From NCBI GenBank assembly GCA_017507805.1, contig JAFWAC010000029.1, positions 62,001 through 126,000 of the forward strand: a stretch of DNA of 64,000 bases. Direction: 5' to 3'. The DNA comes from Clostridia bacterium. GTDB taxonomy: Bacteria > Bacillota > Clostridia > Oscillospirales > Acutalibacteraceae. The position numbers and the translations under genes were made by a program. The notes below the pieces were generated by a model, which saw only the letters and a program-made list of their open reading frames with translations, had not been told where the DNA came from and ran no database searches. This document shows positions 21,569 to 61,800 of the stretch, in pieces. How positions within the stretch are numbered: the stretch's first letter is position 1; each line of letters begins with the position of its first letter.

Positions 21569-22648
21569 CTATGGACTTACGGGGGCGGTGCTGTTTCCGA
21601 TTTCCAATGAAACATCCAAGATTATTTTTTTGGTGTGTGCGGAATTGTTTAATAAAGACTCAAACAGTATCCTTGCCGCTTCATGTCCCATATCATAGCC
21701 CGGGATTTTGACTGTGGTGAATTTGATGGGGGTAAGCACCTCTCCGATAGATCCGTCAAAGCCGGTGATTGAAACCTGACCGGGAATATTTATACCTAAA
21801 GCGTTTAATGCGTTGTAAGCAAAAAGCGCCGTAATATCATTACCGCAGGCGATTGCCGTGTAATTGAAATTTCCCGAAACGGCGCGCCCTGCAATATAAG
21901 GCTCAGCCTCAGCCTCAAAGGAAAGCCAGATTATATCGTTCGGAGCAAGAAAAACTTTGTGCTTTTCAAGACCGTCCTTGATGCCCTGCAAACGGTTTTC
22001 CAAGGTTTTAGCCATGTTTGTGGTGGAAAGAAACATAATTTTTTTGTGTCCAAGCTGACCTAAATAATCGCCAATCATATAACCGCCGATATAATCGTCC
22101 GCAACAACATAATTATATATACCCTTTTCGAGAGGGTTGTCAATCAGAACGAAGGGAATGTTGTTTGCGTTGAGCAGGTCAAGCATTTCCGTATCGTAGA
22201 TATCGTTGTAGGCGGTGAGCACAGCACCTGCAAAAAGATCAAGGTTGAGCCGCCTTAAAATATCGTTTCTCAGCACCTTGTCGGAATGGTTGATTATCTG
22301 GTAGCTGTAATTAAGAGAGTTGGCATAATCGATTATACCAAGGATTGATTTTGAAAACAGATTAATGTCCCTTTTCTGGATATTTGCGATTATCAGAATA
22401 CTGTCCTTGTGCTTGTTGGGATGCTTTTGGGCAGACGGAATAACCAGACCTATGCCTGCTTTTCTTTCAAGGACACCCTCCTCAATCAGCAATTCAACAG
22501 CCTTTCGGATTGTTGGGCGCGACACATTGTATTTTTCGGCAAAGGAGACCTCTGTTCCGACAAAATCGCCCTGGACAAATTTACCCAATTCAACACGGAT
22601 ATCGTCCCTTATTTTTTTATAAAGCTTTCCTTTTTCATTGTTTTCCAT
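21569..22648 (-). CDS. GntR/AraR-type transcriptional repressor with LacI-like sugar-binding domain
   Basis: A 359-residue regulator. Residues about 5-75 form a GntR-family winged helix-turn-helix (FAEKYNVSRPTIRKAVELLIEEGVLERKAG). Residues about 85-355 form a periplasmic-binding-protein-like domain as in LacI/AraR (DSILIIANIQKRDINLFSK, LIDNPLEKG, LGHKKIMFLS, CGNDITALFAYNALNALGI, SITGFDG). Such proteins release DNA when a sugar binds. It is transcribed away from the glycan locus, whose promoter lies about 500 bp from its start, so it is the obvious candidate local regulator. Ligand unknown. Confidence 0.9.
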   Translation of the reverse strand: MENNEKGKLYKKIRDDIRVELGKFVQGDFVGTEVSFAEKYNVSRPTIRKAVELLIEEGVLERKAGIGLVIPSAQKHPNKHKDSILIIANIQKRDINLFSKSILGIIDYANSLNYSYQIINHSDKVLRNDILRRLNLDLFAGAVLTAYNDIYDTEMLDLLNANNIPFVLIDNPLEKGIYNYVVADDYIGGYMIGDYLGQLGHKKIMFLSTTNMAKTLENRLQGIKDGLEKHKVFLAPNDIIWLSFEAEAEPYIAGRAVSGNFNYTAIACGNDITALFAYNALNALGINIPGQVSITGFDGSIGEVLTPIKFTTVKIPGYDMGHEAARILFESLLNNSAHTKKIILDVSLEIGNSTAPVSP

Positions 22649-23751: not shown

Positions 23752-26016
23752 ATGAAAAAAATTCAAAAACTTTTGGCAATCGTTTTTGCGGTGCTTCTGG
23801 CTTTCAGCTTTGTAATCGTGCCGCAGGCAGAGGAAGCGGCAGAGCCTGGTGAGCCTGCTAAGGACACAAAGGCAATTCAGCTTGCAATTAAATTCACGGA
23901 TGGAACAGAGGGCACTAAAAAAGCAGCTTATGTGCGCCTTTGGGATTCTAATATGATGTATGCACCTGCCACTTTAGGCGACTTTGCAAGCAATGTTGTG
24001 ATTGCCGGAAGCGATTGGTATGTTCAGTATGATTACGCTATGTCAGACGCAATAACCGGTTTTGGCGGTCTTTATGTTGCAGGTGGCAGCAATTGGCAGT
24101 ATGTTGGTGCTCCTACCGCCGACCGTACCGATGGTATCGGTCAGTGGCAGACCGCAAAAATGAGTCTTGAAGGTATGGGCTGCAGTTCGTCCTGGAGCCA
24201 GAAAATTGCAGACTTCCTGCTTTGCTTTGAAACAACTCAAGCTGTTGATACCAACAGAACATATTATATGTACTATAAGAATATGACAATCAGAAACGGT
24301 GCGGGCGAGGTTGTTTATCGTTTGTTCGGCGATGATATAACAAGCAAGCAGATGTCAACACTCTATTCTGTTTGGTCGGAAAGCAATGCTTCGGCTACGC
24401 CTTCGGTTGTTACCGACCCCTATACCGATTCTCTCTATGCTGACAAGGCAATTCAGATGAAAATTGATTTCACAAATGGTGACGCCGGAGTAAATAAAGC
24501 TGTTCAGCTTCAGCTTTATGGCGAATGTTTAAGAAATGCTCCCGAAAGATTGGGCTTCCGCGGAGAAACCGATACAGAGAACTGCTTCATTCAGGGCAGC
24601 GATTGGTCGCTTAAATATGATTATGCTATTTCAGACAGTGTTGTAGGTCTCGGAAACATTCAGGTACAGGCAAGAAGTAACTGGAATCTTGCAGGCGATC
24701 CAAGTGCGGACCATACCGCCGGAACAGGCGTTTGGCAGACCGAAATTGCAAGTCTTGAAGGCTTGGGTTGTACTTCGAGCTGGGGTCAGGGCTTATATAC
24801 CGTTGCTCTTTCAGCTGTTACAACTGCCGCTGTTGACACAACAAAATCTTATTATGCGTGGTATAAAAACATTGAAATCATTGACGGTAACGGAAATGTT
24901 GTATATACCCTGTTTGATGACACTGTAAACAACCGTGAAATTTCCGCAACATGGCAAACATGGGGAGCACCTTCAAACTGTGAGGTGGAGCTTTCTGTTG
25001 TAAGAGACCCGTTTGACACCCGCCGCGCTGTGGCTAACACCACAAAGGCGCTTGAAGCTAAAATCAGATTTACCAACGGTGAAGAAGGCGTTGCAAAATA
25101 TGCCACACAGGCTTTGTGGGGCACATACTTGGTCGGTTTAATAGATAAGATTGAAGCCAACAGGTATTGCTACCGAACAAACCTTACAAATGTAACTATG
25201 CCAATAGAAGGAATGGATTGGACCCTTGAATACGAGTATATGATTTCCGACCCGATTGTAGGTCTCGGAACAGCAATGACTCAGGATGGAGATGTATGGG
25301 CTGTTTGCGGCGACAGTGCTGCAGACCACACTGACGGTGTTGGTGTTTGGCAGAAGGAGGTTGTTTCACTTTATGATATGTATGCTGACCCCACTTGGGT
25401 AAGACCTCTTTATGCTGTTGGACTTACGGTTAATACCACGGCTGCGGTTGATACTGACAGAGATTATTATGCATACTATAAGAACATTGTAATCAAAGAC
25501 GGCAACGGCGATATTCAGTATGTTCTTTTCCATGATGATATTACACAGGAAGAACTTTATGTCCTGTATTGGAACAATCCTTCAAATGCCACAATGGACC
25601 TCAGCGTTGTTAATTTACCCAACAAGATCACAAAGGCTGAAACCGAAAACGGAAGCTTTAATGTGAGAGCACTTGCAAGCAATGAAGCTGTTGTTGAGGT
25701 TGCTGCTAAACCGGCTTACGGTTACAAGGTAGGCTCTGTCACTGTTGGAGACCTTGAGGTTACAAAGGCTGCCCGCAATGCTTATACCTTTGTTATGCCT
25801 GCTGCCGATGTTGAGGTTGCTGTTAATTTCGTGAATGCAATCGCAGGTGACTTTGACGAGGACGAAAATATCAACGGCTCAGACCTTGCAAAGCTTATGC
25901 AGATTGTTTTAGGCAAGGACAACGACTATGATGCTTTTGTTGCCAATGTTTGCGACAGTGATGAGGTTATAAATCTTCTCGACATTGTTAGACTTAAAAA
26001 ATCTATTGCCGAGTAA
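23752..26016 (+). CDS. Secreted three-module surface protein with dockerin-like C-terminus
   Basis: A 754-residue exported protein: signal peptide (1-26), three copies of a ~190-residue module (about 39-223, 231-420, 431-622), a Flg_new_2/InlB_B-type beta repeat (627-695) and a dockerin type I-like end (697-754) with two Asp/Asn-rich calcium-loop segments (GDFDEDENINGSDL and CDSDEVINLLDI). Each module opens with AIxxxIxFTxGxxG, holds a GSDWxxxYDYxxSD segment and a DHTxGxGxWQ segment, and closes with VDTxxxYYxxYKNI...VVYxLF. I do not recognise the module; the all-beta pattern and context suggest glycan binding. No catalytic motif is seen. It is the first gene after the locus promoter, with AGGAGG before the ATG. 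Confidence 0.8.
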   Translation: MKKIQKLLAIVFAVLLAFSFVIVPQAEEAAEPGEPAKDTKAIQLAIKFTDGTEGTKKAAYVRLWDSNMMYAPATLGDFASNVVIAGSDWYVQYDYAMSDAITGFGGLYVAGGSNWQYVGAPTADRTDGIGQWQTAKMSLEGMGCSSSWSQKIADFLLCFETTQAVDTNRTYYMYYKNMTIRNGAGEVVYRLFGDDITSKQMSTLYSVWSESNASATPSVVTDPYTDSLYADKAIQMKIDFTNGDAGVNKAVQLQLYGECLRNAPERLGFRGETDTENCFIQGSDWSLKYDYAISDSVVGLGNIQVQARSNWNLAGDPSADHTAGTGVWQTEIASLEGLGCTSSWGQGLYTVALSAVTTAAVDTTKSYYAWYKNIEIIDGNGNVVYTLFDDTVNNREISATWQTWGAPSNCEVELSVVRDPFDTRRAVANTTKALEAKIRFTNGEEGVAKYATQALWGTYLVGLIDKIEANRYCYRTNLTNVTMPIEGMDWTLEYEYMISDPIVGLGTAMTQDGDVWAVCGDSAADHTDGVGVWQKEVVSLYDMYADPTWVRPLYAVGLTVNTTAAVDTDRDYYAYYKNIVIKDGNGDIQYVLFHDDITQEELYVLYWNNPSNATMDLSVVNLPNKITKAETENGSFNVRALASNEAVVEVAAKPAYGYKVGSVTVGDLEVTKAARNAYTFVMPAADVEVAVNFVNAIAGDFDEDENINGSDLAKLMQIVLGKDNDYDAFVANVCDSDEVINLLDIVRLKKSIAE

Positions 26017-26333
26017 GAAATTAATATTTTAATTTACTGTAAAGTTATAGGGAACGGCTTGAAAACCGTTCCCTATACGGTACTAACAGACCATAATTTT
26101 CCATATTTTTCAGGCGATTTCGCGAAACAGAGCGCGGCTTCAGAGTGTATTTTACAGGTTCTGAATCCGCAAATTCCCTTTTTGGTTTGTTTTTTGGGAA
26201 ACGGATTGCCACAGCGGTTTCACGGTTTCGCAATAACAAAAAGACACATCGTCCCCTACAAAGAAAAATTCAATTGTGTATTATATCGGGCGGTAAATGC
26301 GCTTTACAGCAATTTAAAGAAAGGAAAACTCTT
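26017..26333. other. Intergenic leader with palindrome and repeat DNA
   Basis: Contains a perfect 11-bp hairpin (26047-26057 with 26066-26076) without a T-run, and a repeat segment ending CGTCCCCTAC near 26260 that includes GCGGTTTCACGGTTTCGC, like the segment at 23534 in the previous leader. No gene and no convincing promoter. Confidence 0.55.
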
Positions 26334-28427
26334 ATGAAAAAATTATTAGCACTCATTATTTCGGTTTGTTTGTTGCTTTCGGTTTGCATCATTCCGGTGG
26401 CAATCAACGCCGAAACAGACACAGGCTCCGAAACCGACAAGGTAATCCAGATGGCTGTTAACTTTACAGACGGCACTGAAGGAACATCAAAGGCTGTTCA
26501 GATGCGCCTTTATGATGAATACCTCAAATATGCTCCGACAAGACTTGGGCTTTTGAAAGAAGGCACCTCCGATACTAATTGCTATATGATTGGTACCGGC
26601 TGGTCTTTAAAATATGATTATGCAATTTCCGACAGTGTTGTTGGTTTGGGTACCATTCAGCTTCAGGCAAGAACCAACTGGAATCTTGCAGGCGATCCAA
26701 GTGCGGACCATACCGCCGGCACTGCCGCTTGGCAGACCGAGACAATGAACCTCGATCCGTTGGGCTGTGCCCCTGATTGGGGTCAGGGCTTATATTGTGT
26801 TGCCCCTTCGGTTATAACCACCGCCGCTGTTGACACAAGCAAAACCTACTATGCGTATTTCAAAAACATCCGCATTGAAAATGCGGATGGTCAGGTTGTT
26901 TACACACTTTTCGACAACTCTGTAACCACACAGGAGCTTTGTCCTTCGGTTTGGGGAACGCCAACAGGCGCTTCTGCTGACCTTTCGGTTGTTGATGACC
27001 CGTACCCTAACACCGGTGTATATGCACCCAATCAGGGCGGCAACGGCGGTGACGGCACCGGAACAGGCACCGGAACAGGTACCGGAACAGGTACCGAGCC
27101 TGCAAAGGGCGACACCATTAAAGCAACCGTTAAGTTCACTGCAGGCAAGAAGGGCGAAAAGAAATACGCTTATGTTTCACTTTTAGGCTACCAAGCCGCT
27201 GCATTTAAGAATTACAAATTCTCTTATGGCGACAAGCTTGCATGGGAATTTGCTTTGACCGAAAAGAAGCCGTTGCCCGGACTTGGAACAATGGACTATC
27301 AGTGCACCAACGGTGGCACAATGAATGACCAAACCAAAGGCGGTGCCGTTTCCTGGGATGTTTACGGAAATGCCTATACCACTTCAACCGATCTTTCAAC
27401 TGCTGTTGGCTATGCACCCAACACATGGGTAACAGAGTGGGTAACCCCCACAGAGGGTATTTCTGCTTTGGCATCCGGTGACAAATGGCAGGGCGGTATG
27501 CAGCATCTGCTTCTCACCATTGATGCTACTGATTATGCTGTTGACACAAGCAAGGAATATGTTGCTTATTACAGAAATATCCGCATTATTGATGCTAACG
27601 GCAAAACCTCTTTAACCCTCTTTGACGGAACTCAGGATATCGTTGGAGAAAATTGGCAGAGCGAGGGCGCTGAAATGACAGTTACCAAGGTTGCAAATCC
27701 CTTCAAGGCAACTGTTAAGGCACCCGTTACCAACAAGGCATTAAAGGTTGCAGTTGAGTTTGAATACTTAAAGGAAATGCAGGGTAAAACCGGTACTTAC
27801 ACACTTTTTGGTTATCTCCAGAATGATGCTGTAATTGAGCTTGCTGCAGATGATAAGCTTTCCTATGATGTTATGCTTGCAGACGATGTTGCGGGTATGG
27901 GCGGTATCACCTATCAGGAAGACCAATACAACGGCGGTTTCTGGGGAATGTATCATGAAATGGTTGTAAACCAAGGTATGACCGATCAGCACGGCGTTTC
28001 TCTTGCACACGATGCCGACCTTTCAAATGTTGCTCTTAACAAGTGGTATACCCGTGTTTGTGAACCCGGCACCAAGGAAGACCGTCACCTTTGCCACTTC
28101 GGTATCGGTTTCAACCTCACCAAGAGTGCTGTTAAGGCAGGCAAGCAGTATGTTTGCTATTATGACAACATTAAGGTTCTCCATGCAGACGGTACCGAGA
28201 CCGTTATCTATGACGGTTCACAGTCCATTGCTCCCAGTGGCTTGATGGCGGAAACAGGTGTTAAGAGTATATCAATTTCAACCGTTGACCTTATTGTGAA
28301 CGGCAGCGGAAGCGGTATCCCCAACACAGGTGATGCCACAGCTCAGACCACTGTTTGGGTTTCCTTTGTAATGGTTCTTTCTTTGGCAGTTTTGTCAACC
28401 GCATTACTTCGCAAAAAGAATAACTAA
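26334..28427 (+). CDS. Sortase-anchored surface protein with three modules of the same family
   Basis: A 697-residue protein: signal peptide (1-26), one typical copy of the module (36-222), a Gly-Thr linker (about 232-257), two diverged copies (about 258-455 and 463-655) and a sorting signal: IPNTG (662-666), a hydrophobic stretch and the tail RKKNN. IPNTG is an LPXTG variant, so the protein is probably attached to peptidoglycan by a sortase. The ATG at 26334 follows AAAGGA; an upstream in-frame start at 26145 would add non-coding repeat residues and bury the signal peptide. No enzyme motif is visible; a glycan-capturing role is inferred. Confidence 0.82.
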   Translation: MKKLLALIISVCLLLSVCIIPVAINAETDTGSETDKVIQMAVNFTDGTEGTSKAVQMRLYDEYLKYAPTRLGLLKEGTSDTNCYMIGTGWSLKYDYAISDSVVGLGTIQLQARTNWNLAGDPSADHTAGTAAWQTETMNLDPLGCAPDWGQGLYCVAPSVITTAAVDTSKTYYAYFKNIRIENADGQVVYTLFDNSVTTQELCPSVWGTPTGASADLSVVDDPYPNTGVYAPNQGGNGGDGTGTGTGTGTGTGTEPAKGDTIKATVKFTAGKKGEKKYAYVSLLGYQAAAFKNYKFSYGDKLAWEFALTEKKPLPGLGTMDYQCTNGGTMNDQTKGGAVSWDVYGNAYTTSTDLSTAVGYAPNTWVTEWVTPTEGISALASGDKWQGGMQHLLLTIDATDYAVDTSKEYVAYYRNIRIIDANGKTSLTLFDGTQDIVGENWQSEGAEMTVTKVANPFKATVKAPVTNKALKVAVEFEYLKEMQGKTGTYTLFGYLQNDAVIELAADDKLSYDVMLADDVAGMGGITYQEDQYNGGFWGMYHEMVVNQGMTDQHGVSLAHDADLSNVALNKWYTRVCEPGTKEDRHLCHFGIGFNLTKSAVKAGKQYVCYYDNIKVLHADGTETVIYDGSQSIAPSGLMAETGVKSISISTVDLIVNGSGSGIPNTGDATAQTTVWVSFVMVLSLAVLSTALLRKKNN
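27054..27095 (+). repeat. 12-bp tandem repeat encoding Gly-Thr linker
   Basis: Three tandem units of GGAACAGG(C/T)ACC (27060-27095) preceded by a partial unit. Unit length is a multiple of three, so copy-number change alters linker length without frameshift. Confidence 0.85.
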
Positions 28428-36221: not shown

Positions 36222-38465
36222 ATGAAAAGAATTTTAATATTTGTTATTTCATTAATGCTGGCTTTTTCTTTAACAGCCTGTTCAAATGGCGGTCTTGCCT
36301 CCAAGGTAAAGGGCTCCGGAATTGTCACTTCCGGTAAAAGCCTACCTGATGAGGGAAAAGCTGTTACCCTGAGTCCGGAGAAATTTAATGCCTTTTCGTA
36401 CAGCCCTGTGGCAGAAAACGGCAAGTTCACCTTATGGTATGATGAAAATAACAGTGCGGTGCGTGTGACCGATGCGTCAGGCACCAAGGTTTGGGACAGT
36501 GTAATTGATTTTGAAAGCTTGGGACTCAAGCTTACAAATGTCTGGAAGCAGAAGGTGTCCTCAATGTTTGAGATAAACTATTCCCATCCTAATGATAACG
36601 GACGCGAGCGAATAGTTTCAGCCACACTCAGAAAGCTTGAAACCAAGGTGTGGTTTGAAAAGAATGATGAGGGAATTGATATTACATATTATTTCCCAAA
36701 GCGTAAGCTCGGCTTTGTTGCCGAATTTCGCCTGACAGAGGGTGGATTTACTGTAAACATCCCTGCCGAGTCAATCATAGAAAACGGTGAATACCGTTTT
36801 GTCAGCATAAATATGCTTCCCTTTTTTTCGGCATTTGGTGCAGAGGAAAATGGTTATATCATGACACCTTATTCAGGCGGTGCTTTGCTTGATTTCGGTA
36901 AGGAAACACAGGGCAAGTATATGCAGATGCCGGTTTTTTCCGAAAGCAACATAACTCCGCAGGAGTCTACCAAGCTTGACCCTCAGGCAAGCAACCAAAC
37001 ACAGGCGCAGTCAAGCGGTGTGTCACTTCCGATAATAGGAATGAACAACACAAGGACCGGCTTTGTTGTTTTTCCGGATGAGATAGGCGAGGATACATAT
37101 ATAAATATAAGCACAGCTTATTACGGTATTCCCTTTAACCGTGTTTCGTTCTGCTATTATGTGAGAAATGTGTCAACCCTCAGCTTTTCCGGCTCCGCAG
37201 ATACCGCCGAGGGCACTGCTGACATTTTGGATGATGATATTATTCCGGCAGATAAAAAGCTTTGCTATGAGCTTCTCGGAGAAAGCGAATGTGATTATAA
37301 CGGCATGGCTCAGAAATACCGTGAGCATTTGATTGAAAAGGGCTTGCTTGATGCAAAGAAAAGTGAGAATGCCGATGTTTCGGTTGAAATACTGATGAGT
37401 GTTCCGCGTGTGGATATGGCAGGTACAACACTTGTGCAGACCACCGATTTTGAACAAGCCCTCCAAATGGTTAAGGAAATGAAAAAAAGCGGAATTGAAA
37501 ACGCACTCATTAACCTTAAGGGCTGGAACAATAACGGCTACGGTGCTACCCCCACCGAAAATCGGGTTGAGGATGCAATAGGCGGAAGCAAGGGACTTGG
37601 AGCACTTGCTGAATACTGCAAGGAGATAGGCTATAAGCTGATTTTGGAAACTGATTATACCGAGCTTAACACAAGCTTTTCAAATCTTTCCGCCAAAAAG
37701 ACAGCGGTGGTTGATAACAATGGCTTCTATATTACGAATGAGGGCGAGAATATTTATTATCAGCGCTTGTCGGTAATAGAAGGCTATGTCAACGAGTTTA
37801 TAAAGGAATTTTCAGAAAGCGGTATAAGCGGTATTAATTTCAAGGGCTTCGGAAGCCTTTTGTACCGTGATTACAATCAAAAGGTTACATATACCGGAGA
37901 TTTTGCCAAGGGTATTAAGGAGCAAATTTCAAAGGCTTCCAAAAGCTTTTCCGATGTTGCTGTCAGAGGAACCAATTTTTATGCTCTTTCCGGAAGCGAT
38001 TACGCTTACGATACGGAAATCCCTTATGTTGACAGCACCGTATATTCGGCATATGTTCCGCTTTTACAGTTGATTGCAGGGGACAGTGTAGGCTTTATTT
38101 CAACACCTATAAATGCCTTTTTCAGCCCAACATCTCAAAGCCTTTCTCAGTTGGAATATAATTCTATTCCGAATTTCGAGCTGACAAGCGAGAGTGTTTA
38201 CAGCCTGCAGGACACTCATTATAACACCCTCTTTTCCGCTAAGTTTGACCTTTGGCTTGACAGCATTGTGCAGCAATATGAGCTGAGAAACGGCGAGCTG
38301 AAGGAAGTTAGCAATTCAAGACTTGTAAACCACACAATTCTTGCTAAAGATGTGGTACTGCTTAAATATGAAAACGGAAAAGAGCTTTTAATTAACAAAA
38401 GCAGTAAGGATTACACCTATGGCGAAACGGCTGTCAAGGCATATCGGTTCGCGTTAGTAAATTAA
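36222..38465 (+). CDS. DUF5696-type lipoprotein (possible glycoside hydrolase-like barrel)
   Basis: A 747-residue lipoprotein with lipobox LTAC (C20). The N-terminal half is beta-rich (ENGKFTLWYDENNSAVRVTDASG...KVWDS) and the second half looks like an alpha/beta barrel (ALINLKGWNNNGYG, GYKLILETDYTELNTSF, ISGINFKGFGSLLYRDYN). This matches what I recall as DUF5696, found with sugar importers and YIP1 genes. Whether it is an enzyme is unknown; I cannot point to a proven catalytic pair. 14 bp separate it from the next permease. Confidence 0.75.
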   Translation: MKRILIFVISLMLAFSLTACSNGGLASKVKGSGIVTSGKSLPDEGKAVTLSPEKFNAFSYSPVAENGKFTLWYDENNSAVRVTDASGTKVWDSVIDFESLGLKLTNVWKQKVSSMFEINYSHPNDNGRERIVSATLRKLETKVWFEKNDEGIDITYYFPKRKLGFVAEFRLTEGGFTVNIPAESIIENGEYRFVSINMLPFFSAFGAEENGYIMTPYSGGALLDFGKETQGKYMQMPVFSESNITPQESTKLDPQASNQTQAQSSGVSLPIIGMNNTRTGFVVFPDEIGEDTYINISTAYYGIPFNRVSFCYYVRNVSTLSFSGSADTAEGTADILDDDIIPADKKLCYELLGESECDYNGMAQKYREHLIEKGLLDAKKSENADVSVEILMSVPRVDMAGTTLVQTTDFEQALQMVKEMKKSGIENALINLKGWNNNGYGATPTENRVEDAIGGSKGLGALAEYCKEIGYKLILETDYTELNTSFSNLSAKKTAVVDNNGFYITNEGENIYYQRLSVIEGYVNEFIKEFSESGISGINFKGFGSLLYRDYNQKVTYTGDFAKGIKEQISKASKSFSDVAVRGTNFYALSGSDYAYDTEIPYVDSTVYSAYVPLLQLIAGDSVGFISTPINAFFSPTSQSLSQLEYNSIPNFELTSESVYSLQDTHYNTLFSAKFDLWLDSIVQQYELRNGELKEVSNSRLVNHTILAKDVVLLKYENGKELLINKSSKDYTYGETAVKAYRFALVN

Positions 38466-51869: not shown

Positions 51870-53117
51870 ATGCGCACAAAAAATAAATTCCTTAAAAGGG
51901 CAACAGCCTTAATTTGTGTTTGTGCTTTGACCGCTGCAGTGCTTTTAAGCGGTTGCAAGGATAATGCAAAAAAGGAAACTCCCTCAGAACCTAAAATAGA
52001 AAAAACCGTTAATATCACAGACGAGAAATGGAAAAAGCTTGTTGAGAAGCCCGGCACTGCCGATGAAAATTGGACACCGGCAATCTCTGCCGCGATTAAA
52101 TATGCGGCAGAAAACGGTTGCCATACCGTATACGCACCTGCAGGAGAGTATCCATGCGAAGCTTCGTATGAAAAGGAGGCATGGGAGCTTGAGCCTGCCT
52201 CATTTGTCCTTCCCGATGCACCCCTTACAATAAAGGGTGACGGCGAGAGTACGGTTTTTTATAAGCCTGTAGCCAGCAAATTGGAAAATTCTATTGCAAT
52301 GTTCCGTACCGCGTTTAAAAGCACATCTGAAATAACCTTAAAGGATTTTACAATAAAAGGAACATATAATCCCGGTCCGAATTACGGTTTGGTAGACGGT
52401 ATTGTTATTAACGGAAGCTCAAATGTTACGGTTGAAAATATTTGTACCGAAGGCACAAAGCGCCACGGAATTTATCTTATGTGCGGTGCGAATGGCAATG
52501 TAATCAAAAATGTTCACATTGATAATCCCACAAGAATGATGCTTGGAACAGGTATCCAGCTTGAGGGGGCATATAATAATGAATTTTATAATGTTTATCT
52601 TACAAATATCGGCGCTAATGCAATAGATCTTAATATGTGGAATGCCGGTAGCTTTTATCCTGCTAATGACGGCACCAATAACAGCCCTTACTCGGAAAGT
52701 GAAAAATATTATTCTACAGGAAATACCTTCATTGGCGGCTATATTTCGGGAACAGGCTTACATAACGGAAATATCGGCGGAGGAGGGTATATCGACCCCT
52801 CGCCGCATGACGATTATTACGGTATAAATGTAATAAATGGCAGTAATAATAACAAGTTTGTTTTTGATTATATTGAAAATGTCCGTATGACTGAAACCGA
52901 TTATGAAAATGCTGCTGCAATCCGCCTTATGAACAGTAGCTATAACACATTTGAAATCGGTCGAGTTTCAAATAGTACGAAATATGCCGTTAGGTATAAC
53001 AGCCCTGTCTGGAGTAACGAGATTACTATAGGCGAGGTATCCGGAATTGCAGGAGAGCTGTTCAATTCCGAGGAAGCTGACGCTGCAAGAAATAACCTTG
53101 TAATTAAAAATCAGTAA
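51870..53117 (+). CDS. Parallel beta-helix lipoprotein (pectate-lyase-superfamily type)
   Basis: A 415-residue lipoprotein (lipobox LSGC, C29). It opens with TADENWTPAISAAIKYAAENG and VYAPAGEYPC, the usual entry of the Pectate_lyase_3 superfamily, then shows repeated short beta strands (SEITLKDFTIKG, SNVTVENICTEGTKRHGIYL) typical of a right-handed helix. Such proteins act as polysaccharide lyases or hydrolases, or bind glycans; no confident active site is visible. The next gene's N-terminal half is a close copy. Confidence 0.85.
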   Translation: MRTKNKFLKRATALICVCALTAAVLLSGCKDNAKKETPSEPKIEKTVNITDEKWKKLVEKPGTADENWTPAISAAIKYAAENGCHTVYAPAGEYPCEASYEKEAWELEPASFVLPDAPLTIKGDGESTVFYKPVASKLENSIAMFRTAFKSTSEITLKDFTIKGTYNPGPNYGLVDGIVINGSSNVTVENICTEGTKRHGIYLMCGANGNVIKNVHIDNPTRMMLGTGIQLEGAYNNEFYNVYLTNIGANAIDLNMWNAGSFYPANDGTNNSPYSESEKYYSTGNTFIGGYISGTGLHNGNIGGGGYIDPSPHDDYYGINVINGSNNNKFVFDYIENVRMTETDYENAAAIRLMNSSYNTFEIGRVSNSTKYAVRYNSPVWSNEITIGEVSGIAGELFNSEEADAARNNLVIKNQ

Positions 53118-53155
53118 AGAATTCAACAAACGATATGTTAAGGAGAATTAGCTCT

Positions 53156-55993
53156 ATGAAAAGAAGGTTTGATTTTTCAAAAAGGATTTTAGCAGTTGCT
53201 TCTGCGGCTGTCCTGTTGATTACAAGTCTTGCAATTCAAGCCACAGCAACCGATACTACAAAAGAAATAAATGTTCGTAATGCAATGTTTACCAAATATG
53301 TTGAAAACCGCGGAACGGCTGATGAAAATTGGACACCTGCTATTTCTGCGGCAATAAATTATGCTGCAGAGAACGGATATGACACGGTATATATTCCGGC
53401 AGGAGAATACCCATGCGAAGCTTCCGATGAAAAAGAAACCTGGGAATTAGAGCCGGCGGCATTCAATATTCCCGATGCCCCCCTTACAATAAGGGGCGCC
53501 GGGGCAGGAACAGTTATTTATAAACCGCGGGCAAGCAAAACCACAAATATTGTGGCAATGTTCCGTACTTCATTTAAGAGTACATCTGAAATAACCTTAA
53601 AAGACTTTAAAATAAGGGGAACATATAATCCCGGTTCAAATTACGGTCTCGCTGATGCAATCGTTATCAACGGCAGCTCAAATGTTACAATTGAAAATAT
53701 TTACACCGAGGGTACAAAAAGACACGGAATTTATCTTATCTGCGGTGCGCATAACAATCTGATAAGCAATGTTTATATTGATAATCCCACCAGAATGATG
53801 CTTGGTACCGGTATTCAGCTTGAGGGAGCTTATAATAATGAATTTTATGATGTCTATCTAACTAATATTGGCGCTAATGGTATAGACCTTAATATGTGGA
53901 ATGCCGGTAGCTATTATCCTGCTAATAACGGCATCAACGGCAGTCCTTACGAAGCGGACGAAAAATATTATTCCACAGGCAATGTTTTTATCGGCGGCTA
54001 TATTTCAGGAACGGGTTTGCATAACGGAAGAATAGGCGGCGGAGGATATATAGACCCTTCTCCTTATGATGATTATTACGGTATAAATGTAATAAATGGC
54101 AGTAATAATAACAAGTTTGTTTTTGATTATATTGAAAATGTCCGTATGACTGAAACCGATTATGAAAATGCTGCTGCAATCCGCCTTATGGGTAGCTATA
54201 ATAACACCTTTGAAATCGGTCGTGTGACAAACAGCTCGCAGTATGTTGTTAGGTGCAATAACCCGAATTCGGGCAATAAGATTGTTATAAACGAGGCAAC
54301 GGGCATTGCGGGTGATACGGTTAATTTGTCTGAGGCAGGCTCGGTTGACGGAAATTATTTCGTTATAGGTAATGAAATTTTCGGTGGCAATTTACCAAAA
54401 GAAAATGTTTTGAGAATGGCGGTTAAGTTCTCAAACGGTCAAGCCGGTGTGAGCAAGACGGTAAAATACGGTCTTTATTCACTTGATATGATACATACAC
54501 CGTCTCAGCTTAATCTTATTCAGCAATACAATAAAGGCTCAAACAAACCTACAGGTGGCGTACCTATAAAAGGAAATTGGAGCTTTAAATATGACTATAT
54601 GATATCGGATGATATTGTGGGGCTCGGAAACATAATGCTTCAGGAGAATGATACTTGGGGTGTAGCCGGAGACATTGCCACCGACCATACAGACGGACTT
54701 AACATCTGGCAGTCGGAATCTTTGGATTTGTCACCGTGGAACTGTACCGAAAGCTGGGGCAGAGCTATGCATGCCGTAGGATTAACTGTTAGTACCAAAG
54801 ATGCGGTTGACACAAGCAAGACCTATTACGCATATTATAAAAATCTGCGCATTGAGGATGAAAACGGCAAGGTTGTTTATACGGTTTTTGACAGCACTGT
54901 AACCACCGACCAGCTTTGTATGCAGGAATGGTTGCCGCAAACAAACCAAAATGCTACAGCCTCATTCGATGTTGTGCCGTCCCCCGATACAAACACACTG
55001 AACGAGACCAAGGCAATAAAGGCAGAGTTTACCTTTGAAAACGGGGAAGCAGGGGTTGCTAAAAATATTCAAAAAGCTATTTACGGTAATTATTTGAAAA
55101 GCGCTCCTTCAATTCTTGACCTTGAGCAGGAATATTACTTTAACGGTGAATTAAAAACCGGAAAAGCCCCGATAAAGGGTAATTGGGTTTTTAAGTATGA
55201 ATATATGCTTGATGAAGCACTCAAGGGGATGGGGGCAATAACGCTTCAGTCCTACGATGTGTGGCAAAATGTCACCGGAAATACCGATAAAGACCTTTCT
55301 GCAGGAGTTGGCAAATGGCAGACAGCTGAGCTTGACCTTTCAGGCTGGGGCTGTACAGAGGAAAATGCAAAAGGTATGTATGTGGTAGCTATTTCCTTAA
55401 TAACCTCCGAGGCGGTAGACGCAACTAAAACCTACAGTGCTTACTTTAAAAATCTGCGTGTCGAGGATGAAAACGGCAATATTATTTACAAGCTTTTCAC
55501 AGACAGCATAACCACTTCTCAGCTTGAGGCATGGACTTGGGGAACACCTTCACAGGGTGTTTCAATGGATTTATCTGTTGTAGATATTCCTTATGATATA
55601 GAAAAGGGCGATGCTTCTAACGGAAGCTTTGAGGTGAAGGCAGCAGCCAATAAGGGCGACACCATTGATGTTGCTGTTACACCGAATGTAGGTTATAGAG
55701 TGAATAGAGTAATGTTCGGCGAAAGGGCAGCAACAAAAAATGCCAGAAATTCATATAGCTTCTCAATGCCTTCCACTGATGTTAAGGTTTCGGTTATATT
55801 CGAGCCTTCCGTTGCAGGAGACATTGATGAATCGGGCAGTATAAACAGTACCGATTTGGTCTGCCTGAAGAGTATTCTTTTAGGCAACTTCTTTGATTAT
55901 GATGTGGCATCGGCAGATGTGAAATCGGATAATTTGGAAATCAATATACTTGATTTAATCGGCTTGAAAAAGCTTATAGCAAATAATGCTTAA
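53156..55993 (+). CDS. Secreted beta-helix protein with two surface modules and dockerin-like end
   Basis: A 945-residue exported protein: signal peptide (about 1-31), a beta-helix (about 35-410) nearly identical in plan to the preceding lipoprotein, two copies of the ~190-residue module (about 417-611 and 618-811), a Flg_new_2-type repeat (about 815-883) and a dockerin-like end (about 885-945; GDIDESGSINSTDL...). It joins the enzyme-like helix to the same C-terminal half as the first gene of the locus, suggesting domain shuffling. ATG 53156 is 10 nt after AAGGAG; an ATG at 53135 precedes that site. Confidence 0.83.
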   Translation: MKRRFDFSKRILAVASAAVLLITSLAIQATATDTTKEINVRNAMFTKYVENRGTADENWTPAISAAINYAAENGYDTVYIPAGEYPCEASDEKETWELEPAAFNIPDAPLTIRGAGAGTVIYKPRASKTTNIVAMFRTSFKSTSEITLKDFKIRGTYNPGSNYGLADAIVINGSSNVTIENIYTEGTKRHGIYLICGAHNNLISNVYIDNPTRMMLGTGIQLEGAYNNEFYDVYLTNIGANGIDLNMWNAGSYYPANNGINGSPYEADEKYYSTGNVFIGGYISGTGLHNGRIGGGGYIDPSPYDDYYGINVINGSNNNKFVFDYIENVRMTETDYENAAAIRLMGSYNNTFEIGRVTNSSQYVVRCNNPNSGNKIVINEATGIAGDTVNLSEAGSVDGNYFVIGNEIFGGNLPKENVLRMAVKFSNGQAGVSKTVKYGLYSLDMIHTPSQLNLIQQYNKGSNKPTGGVPIKGNWSFKYDYMISDDIVGLGNIMLQENDTWGVAGDIATDHTDGLNIWQSESLDLSPWNCTESWGRAMHAVGLTVSTKDAVDTSKTYYAYYKNLRIEDENGKVVYTVFDSTVTTDQLCMQEWLPQTNQNATASFDVVPSPDTNTLNETKAIKAEFTFENGEAGVAKNIQKAIYGNYLKSAPSILDLEQEYYFNGELKTGKAPIKGNWVFKYEYMLDEALKGMGAITLQSYDVWQNVTGNTDKDLSAGVGKWQTAELDLSGWGCTEENAKGMYVVAISLITSEAVDATKTYSAYFKNLRVEDENGNIIYKLFTDSITTSQLEAWTWGTPSQGVSMDLSVVDIPYDIEKGDASNGSFEVKAAANKGDTIDVAVTPNVGYRVNRVMFGERAATKNARNSYSFSMPSTDVKVSVIFEPSVAGDIDESGSINSTDLVCLKSILLGNFFDYDVASADVKSDNLEINILDLIGLKKLIANNA

Positions 55994-60494: not shown

Positions 60495-61800
60495 ATGAAT
60501 ATATTTGAGGGTGCTAATTGGATTTGGTATGACTAACAGCAAATTCCTGATTCTTACGGAGATTTCCTTGAGAGTCTTAACTATAAAGGTGGAAAAGTGA
60601 TATGCCACCTATCCTGTGACGGCGATTACACACTTTATGTCAACGGGAAATATGTCTCATCTAACCAATATGGTGACTTTGAGCATTATAAAATCTATGA
60701 CAGTATTGATATAACCGAGTATCTTAATCACGGTGAAAATGAAATTTATTTTTTGGTCTGGCATTTCGGTATCCCCTCATCACGATACAGAACGGCAAAA
60801 GCAGGTTTGCTGTATGCCTTGGAATGTGACGGAGTAATCGCGGCAAAAAGTTCTGCCGAAACACTTTCACGCCAAAATCCGAACTTCAAATCTAATTATT
60901 GTAAAAAAATTACAGGTCAGTTGGGACAAAGCTTTTTGTATGACGCCACAGCATCACAAGCTTCACCATATACTGAAAGTGTCATTGTAGATAAAAAATG
61001 TCAGCTTTATCCCCGTCATATCAAAAAGGCTGAGCTTCTTGAGAAAATGGAAATAAAATTCCTCAAGAAGGATGATAGGCATTTTTTGATTAACTTGGGC
61101 GAAGAAACGGTTGGCTTACCGGTTTTGCGTTTTTTCAGTGAGACCGAACAAAAAATTTATGATATCTGTGTAAAAACACTAAGACTTTGCTTGATGGAGC
61201 ATTATGTTGATACGCCTTGGAGAGAATAATCATTCTATGTTTTGGATTCAAGACTTCAGATACTCTGCGGATACAAGGCTTTTGTTGACGGTAACCGTGA
61301 TTATGTTCGGGCAAACCTTTTATTAATAAGCAAGGATACGCGTGAGGACGGTCATTTATCTATTACATATCCAAGCGGAGGCAAGCTTTCCATTCCCTCC
61401 TTTGCATTGCATTATTTTATTGCCGTTAGAGAATACATCGAAAACACCGGTGACAGTTCTCTCGGAAAAGAGGTTTTCGGAAAACTGCAATCGCTTGTTG
61501 AAATCTTCAAAAAACAAATTGAAAACGGTTTGCTTCGTTCCTTTGAAAATAAAGTTTATTGGAATTTCTATGATTGGTCACCCTATTTGGCTGAAGATAT
61601 AGGCTTAGAAACAAGCTCGGTTGATTTTGAGGGGCTTCACAGAAACTGCCGAGGCAAACCGTCAGCTTTTACTTGATTGGTGCGATAATGAAGAAAGCGG
61701 TGTTTATGAATATTACGATTCAAAAACGGGTAAAGGCTTGGGCGCTGTCGGGTTCGGTTGGTCGTCAACCTTTATAATTGAATTTATTTTGAATTTTTAA
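60495..61800 (+). pseudogene. Decayed GH78 (alpha-L-rhamnosidase-like) gene fused to the tail of an MGH1/GH63-like gene
   Basis: One reading frame from ATG 60495 gives a GH78-like protein interrupted by TAA at 60534-60536 and TAA at 61227-61229, where the family motif DTPWREQ should have Gln (CAA to TAA). Reading through shows YVLDSRLQILCGYKAF, as expected of GH78. Near 61630 the GH78 frame stops matching and ends at 61676. In the +1 frame, 61633-61800 encodes 55 residues (GFTETAEANRQLLLDWCDNEE ... shortened here) closely like the C-terminus of the next gene. So a deletion fused two genes after or before nonsense decay. Almost certainly non-functional. Confidence 0.88.

Follow-up and report, generated by a model that had tools for sequence, protein, structure and literature searches.

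An apparently undescribed repeated module in three predicted exported proteins of a Clostridia bacterium is a candidate glycan-binding domain

We found that three proteins with predicted signal peptides, encoded on the plus strand of a Clostridia genome, share eight homologous copies of a module of 189–204 residues. All eight lie in the window, the whole 64,000-nucleotide stretch of DNA analyzed here. The family is apparently undescribed within Pfam, NCBIfam, PHROGs and the sequences of the PDB, and CBM families outside Pfam and the PDB could include it. Our preferred reading, which we hold with moderate confidence, is that the module is a non-catalytic, CBM-like glycan-binding domain in a cellulosome-like system, where two of the three proteins, A and B, would act as catchers and where the module would probably help to keep sugar polymers near enzymes. 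We infer its fold, its sugar binding and ligand, the docking partners, and the transport and trimming of the freed sugars.

The original prediction described an eight-copy module of ~190 residues, with three copies in A, one typical and two diverged copies in B and two in C, and self-BLAST, alignment and shuffled controls bear out both the family and its distribution. Gene A (23752..26016; 754 aa) encodes a signal peptide followed by modules A1 (23860..24427), A2 (24436..25014) and A3 (25033..25620), a divergent InlB B-repeat domain (Flg_new_2; 25627..25833; Pfam E 7.2e-7, over the cut-off) and a weak dockerin-like domain (25843..26007; Pfam E 0.059, 14 bits, below the cut-off of 22.9). This last domain is absent from the 37 dockerin matches of the whole-genome scan, and among PDB sequences the resemblance of protein A to dockerin chains is weak, with E 0.24 at best. 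Gene B (26334..28427; 697 aa from its likely start) encodes a signal peptide, module B1 (26430..27005) with a Gly/Thr linker after it, the diverged B2 (27105..27716), the most diverged copy, B3 (27729..28298), and an LPXTG-like (IPNTG) sorting signal (28320..28421; NCBIfam TIGR01167). Its start is likely the ATG at 26334, not the GTG at 26145 of the open reading frame list, because a Shine–Dalgarno-like stretch and a signal peptide can be made out there by eye. The sorting signal, a hydrophobic stretch, a basic tail and a sortase encoded in the genome together point to sortase anchoring of B, with a marginal IPNTG match (16.4 bits against a cut-off of 15.9). The signal peptides of all three proteins were judged by eye, and their predicted export follows from them. 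Between genes A and B lies a strong 12-pair hairpin (26046–26077; z −5.4 for the 60-base stretch) with no following T run, possibly an mRNA-stabilizing or processing element.

The third gene had been placed at 53156. A gene with two modules does stand there, but its open reading frame opens at 53135, and 53156 is an in-frame internal ATG. Gene C (53135..55993; 952 aa) encodes a signal peptide, a beta-helix part (53135..54379; PF13229, 19.7 bits, below the cut-off of 25.9), modules C1 (54398..54988) and C2 (55001..55597), a divergent InlB B-repeat domain (55598..55807; Pfam E 6e-7, over the cut-off) and a dockerin type I domain (55814..55978) that lies above its cut-off (24.5 bits in Pfam, 29.8 bits in the genome scan). 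The beta-helix also draws a weak rhamnogalacturonidase match in NCBIfam (27.7 bits against a cut-off of 500). In tandem with this part (53135–54379) stands a module-free gene (51870–53117; beta-helix match of 29.4 bits, over the cut-off) that is 73% identical to it (293/404 aligned), the modules and dockerin occurring in the second gene only; the modules, B-repeat and dockerin of C in turn match the second half of A at 40% identity over 537 columns. Given these two similarities, gene C appears to be a beta-helix gene that took up a module–module–repeat–dockerin cassette.

Self-BLAST and alignment delimit all eight modules; a profile search joins B3 to the family at E 5.8e-53, with B3 itself part of the profile. 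Module-to-module identity across the eight copies is 24–62%, A2 and B1 being 62% identical. Each of the 28 pairs scores higher than all 100 of its shuffled controls (z 5.0 to 91); even the lowest-scoring pair, A1/B3, reaches 56 where its best shuffle reaches 47 (z 5.0). In the organism's own genome (87.6% complete), the eight-copy profile matches exactly eight places, all within the window, and the search found no further copy. On a tree with the relatives described below, a single branch sets the window copies apart (support 88/85, short of the level that the tree tool stars; present in 86% of bootstrap trees), the pattern expected from expansion within this lineage. A2 (24436–25014) and B1 (26430–27005) share a patch of DNA at 0.91–0.96 identity, other alignment windows ranging from 0.44 to 0.82, and this patch with its less similar flanks looks as after gene conversion. 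The all-beta appearance first proposed has its support in a crude propensity calculation averaged over 12 modules, to which we give little weight: it scores 29% of B3 positions as strand-like and 4% as helix-like.

That the module would go unrecognized also held up, with no meaningful match in Pfam, NCBIfam (searched with the three window proteins and five relatives), PHROGs or PDB sequences. In Pfam, 13 modules (the relatives from genomes G088 and G065 left out) were scanned with HMMER filters on and drew no CBM match even at E 10. PDB chain sequences matched the module profiles at a best E of 0.84 or worse, all of them unrelated molecules that we judge to be chance, and a window-only profile had no PDB match at all. 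We likewise attribute to chance the PHROGs hits (E 0.011 and worse) and the weak hits to DUF2341, DUF5021, DUF2721, DUF2430 and DUF5643. CBM_4_9 (PF02018), a beta-sandwich family with a C-terminal 'DN' strand motif, was considered and rejected: it has no HMMER match to the module and none in the own genome, and its hhalign probability stays under 0.5% (0.2–0.4% for five module alignments against 24 of 30 fetched members, from the same order; 0–0.1% for five shuffled controls). Five cohesins of the own genome, compared as a further control, reach at most 0.9%. A literature search, made by related systems and terms and not by sequence, found no paper on the family.

The module has relatives elsewhere in the order. 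The window profile retrieves five enzyme-joined modules in four other genomes (E 2e-12 to 4.6e-4), and an extended profile retrieves eight diverged relatives in six. Within an order-level sample of 394 genomes, the window profile matches five and the extended profile seven, the own genome included each time. Among 99 close genomes (the own genome, 60 of the same genus and 38 of the order), matches fall in the own genome and G097 only, and none of the 60 same-genus genomes has the module; a phylum-wide set of 398 genomes, a sample and not the whole phylum, yields the own genome only with either profile. When aligned by hhalign, the window set and the five enzyme-linked modules score 98.6% probability over 161 columns, and because the window profile had itself retrieved those five, this score confirms homology and is no independent discovery. 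A scan of contigs gave six relative loci among 121 pattern matches, all in G097, G171, G240 and G298; an earlier one gave none among 16. Mobile spread was looked for and not seen: two scans of viral contigs gave no relative among 39 and 116 pattern matches, and plasmids, searched with protein A only, gave no match. G278 gave a weak match (E 7.7e-4, 65 positions) that did not recur with the extended profile and is uncounted. The relatives' records are labelled Oscillospiraceae or Clostridia, and one is from goat rectum.

The case for glycan binding starts from what the module is joined to. Six of the eight relatives share a protein with a carbohydrate-active domain (GH43 in three, an AXE1 esterase in one, a GH14/GH42-like domain in two), and in C the modules adjoin a beta-helix. 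G240 holds three of these relatives, one with the esterase and two with GH43; G298 holds one, with GH43; G097 and G171 hold one each, where the module is C-terminal to the GH14/GH42-like part. Each of the six carries a single terminal module, four at the N-terminus and two at the C-terminus. By architecture alone, these six have what characterizes a carbohydrate-binding module, a domain, here putatively non-catalytic, in a carbohydrate-active protein, and so does C if its beta-helix is an enzyme; A, B and the other two relatives have no enzyme domain. Those two, in G088 and G065, consist of a signal peptide, one module and, judged by eye, a charged linker and a membrane anchor, and they count against glycan binding, as does the setting of the G088 gene, which adjoins a LysM/peptidoglycan-binding/SpoIID-like gene and a capsule-synthesis-like gene. 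The lack of similarity to any described CBM family in Pfam and PDB sequences and the negative CBM_4_9 comparison also weigh against a CBM-like domain. The carbohydrate-binding family first proposed is partly supported, and only by association, from the six relatives, the below-cut-off beta-helix of C and the Trp-rich window copies; the two enzyme-free relatives and the CBM_4_9 comparison count against it.

Conserved residues add to this picture. Our alignment A7 joins the eight window modules to the six enzyme-linked relatives, with G088 and G065 left out and with one row, L018, that has guessed coordinates, a missing first strand and an extra tail and is still counted. Five columns do not vary among the 14 modules (Gly, Gly, Trp, Asn and Gly), and none of them is acidic, His, Ser or Lys; this absence of an invariant catalytic-type residue points to binding, short of proof, and A2 position 62, acidic throughout, leaves a small chance of an active site. 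Window copies are rich in Trp (44 in 1,560 residues versus 8 in 1,048 for the six relatives), which stands at A2 position 57 in six of the eight, at 83 in all eight and at 176 in seven. None of the six relatives has Trp at these three positions, and they are gapped at 83 and 176. Trp conserved in the window copies is consistent with glycan binding, and these columns may be buried instead of forming a binding face. A DLSxxAxxxWYxR-like stretch is common to B3 and the relatives and is missing from the typical window copies.

The same features bear on the alternatives. We think it unlikely that the module serves as an inert structural spacer or stalk that holds enzymes and anchors out from the surface in the manner of Ig-like or fibronectin-like repeats, with no binding of its own. 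In A and B, tandem modules do separate the signal peptide from the anchoring end, each of two relatives has one module ahead of a membrane anchor, and the Gly, Trp and Asn identical in 14 modules may simply be structural. However, a stalk seems less needed in the six relatives with a single terminal module, and the Trp conserved in the window copies, missing from the six aligned relatives, also speaks against a spacer. We give somewhat less credence to the module binding the bacterium's own cell wall or another surface protein and so organizing a surface complex instead of capturing substrate. The cell-wall and capsule-like neighbors of the membrane-anchored G088 version and the predicted wall anchoring of B would fit such a role, but B and C possess anchoring or docking parts apart from the module, A ends in a dockerin-like domain, six of the eight relatives are on carbohydrate-active proteins, and in G065 the module gene follows an alpha-L-rhamnosidase-like gene whose end lies ~1.8 kb upstream. 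Finally, catalytic activity of the module itself, for example as a lyase or esterase, is very improbable despite its presence in apparently secreted carbohydrate-active proteins, its ~190 residues, which are large for a binding module, and an acid at A2 position 62 in 14 of 14 modules (Asp in 11, Glu in 3), which raised our estimate slightly, because six relatives carry a separate catalytic domain and the 14 modules share no identical acidic, His, Ser or Lys residue and only this one all-acidic column.

If the module binds glycan, the three proteins could work together. The two modules of C would keep its beta-helix domain, a putative enzyme, attached to the polymer, with the dockerin of C bound to a cohesin. 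Protein A, which has three modules, a B-repeat, a weak dockerin and no enzyme, would be a non-catalytic catcher bringing glycan to the cohesin–dockerin complex, and B, with three modules and a sorting signal, would retain the same glycan at the cell wall. Freed oligosaccharides could then enter through neighboring ABC transporters and be trimmed by GH2, GH20 and GH38-like enzymes. In keeping with this reading, the module genes sit in a run that encodes two solute-binding proteins, four permeases, three GH2 proteins, a beta-helix protein, a GH38-like/DUF5054 protein and a GH20 protein. Also nearby are a GntR-type regulator with a LacI-like sensor domain (21569–22648, minus strand), an NHL/TPR protein, one Yip1-like and one DUF5696 protein, an MGH1-like hydrolase and a short rhamnosidase-N-like open reading frame. 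The DUF5696 protein lies within the glycan locus (36222–38465; E 5.6e-116), and neither DUF5696 nor DUF5054 is named in papers of the literature collection searched. The short frame (60597–61229; 210 aa), whose alpha-L-rhamnosidase N-terminal domain match is weak and below the cut-off, is possibly a gene fragment.

Cohesins and dockerins, whose co-occurrence is the mark of a cellulosome-like system, are both present in the own genome, with 10 cohesin matches (9 over the cut-off), 37 dockerin matches (31 over the cut-off, 2 of these only with neighbors) and one sortase (E 4.8e-14); SLH anchoring gave no match there. Two observations count against our reading. The searches also match some of 14 control genomes (cohesin in 2, dockerin in 5 and sortase in 3; over the cut-off, cohesin in 1 and dockerin in 2), and the dockerin of A is below the cut-off and missing from the genome scan. 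We scanned 20 of 30 fetched dockerin loci with 1.5-kb flanks, so distant domains can be missed. At 10 of the 20, the dockerin was the only Pfam domain at E 0.001; the remainder had LRR, GH16, Gal_mutarotas_3, beta-helix, laminin-G, RCC1, transglutaminase or DUF4874/4832 domains, and a trans-sialidase C-terminal match fell below the cut-off. The Gal_mutarotas_3 domain (E 1.2e-12) is in another dockerin protein of the own genome (locus L035, 541–3165); it is a domain known from GH101 enzymes, a hint of a host-glycan substrate.

A bolder extension would make the modules the founders of a glycan-binding family new to science, with A, B and C as the substrate-capture arm of an undescribed cohesin–dockerin complex specialized for a hexosamine-bearing glycan, for example a mucin-like one of the host, instead of cellulose or starch. 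The adjacent GH20, GH2 and GH38-like genes and the Gal_mutarotas_3 dockerin protein would point that way, but GH20 and GH2 genes would fit plant or host glycan alike, and we regard the full extension as unlikely. Cellulosome-like mucin complexes are reported for Limousia (PMC12997984).

Several described systems resemble this one, and we compare them here by description, sequences aside. If the modules bind glycan, they would constitute a new family of carbohydrate-binding modules, one that includes typical, diverged and enzyme-linked versions. The advance would be modest in a field already rich in dockerin proteins with unknown domains; PMC2930009 counts 118 dockerin proteins with 155 putative unknown domains in Ruminococcus flavefaciens FD-1. 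CBM37 of Ruminococcus albus (PMC4081043) is similarly lineage-restricted, found both with catalytic modules and in non-catalytic proteins, and sometimes in tandem. However, CBM37 was reported at 51–102 copies per strain, very rarely with dockerins, whereas our module occurs eight times over three genes, and two of these genes end in dockerin-like domains. CttA of R. flavefaciens (PMC2930009 and PMC4081043) is a distinct cellulose-binding protein that has two CBMs and a C-terminal dockerin and attaches the cell to its polymer. Its ligand is cellulose and it is anchored through ScaE.

CttA is a second parallel, and we consider Sas20 of the Ruminococcus bromii amylosome the closest working parallel to A and B. 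PMC9112005 describes Sas20 as having two starch-binding domains that are narrowly distributed and could not be predicted from sequence, and a second R. bromii protein that has a domain related to the first domain of Sas20 and a sortase motif, with no dockerin or cohesin, and is predicted to be wall-anchored. Sas20 domains bind starch; our module profiles match no PDB sequence, and the likeness is one of description. Nevertheless, Sas20 and its wall-anchored relative resemble the pairing of A, with its dockerin-like end, and B, with its sorting signal. If our reading is true, the R. bromii pattern of a related binding domain in both a dockerin-bearing and a wall-anchored protein would extend to a lineage with cohesins and dockerins of its own.
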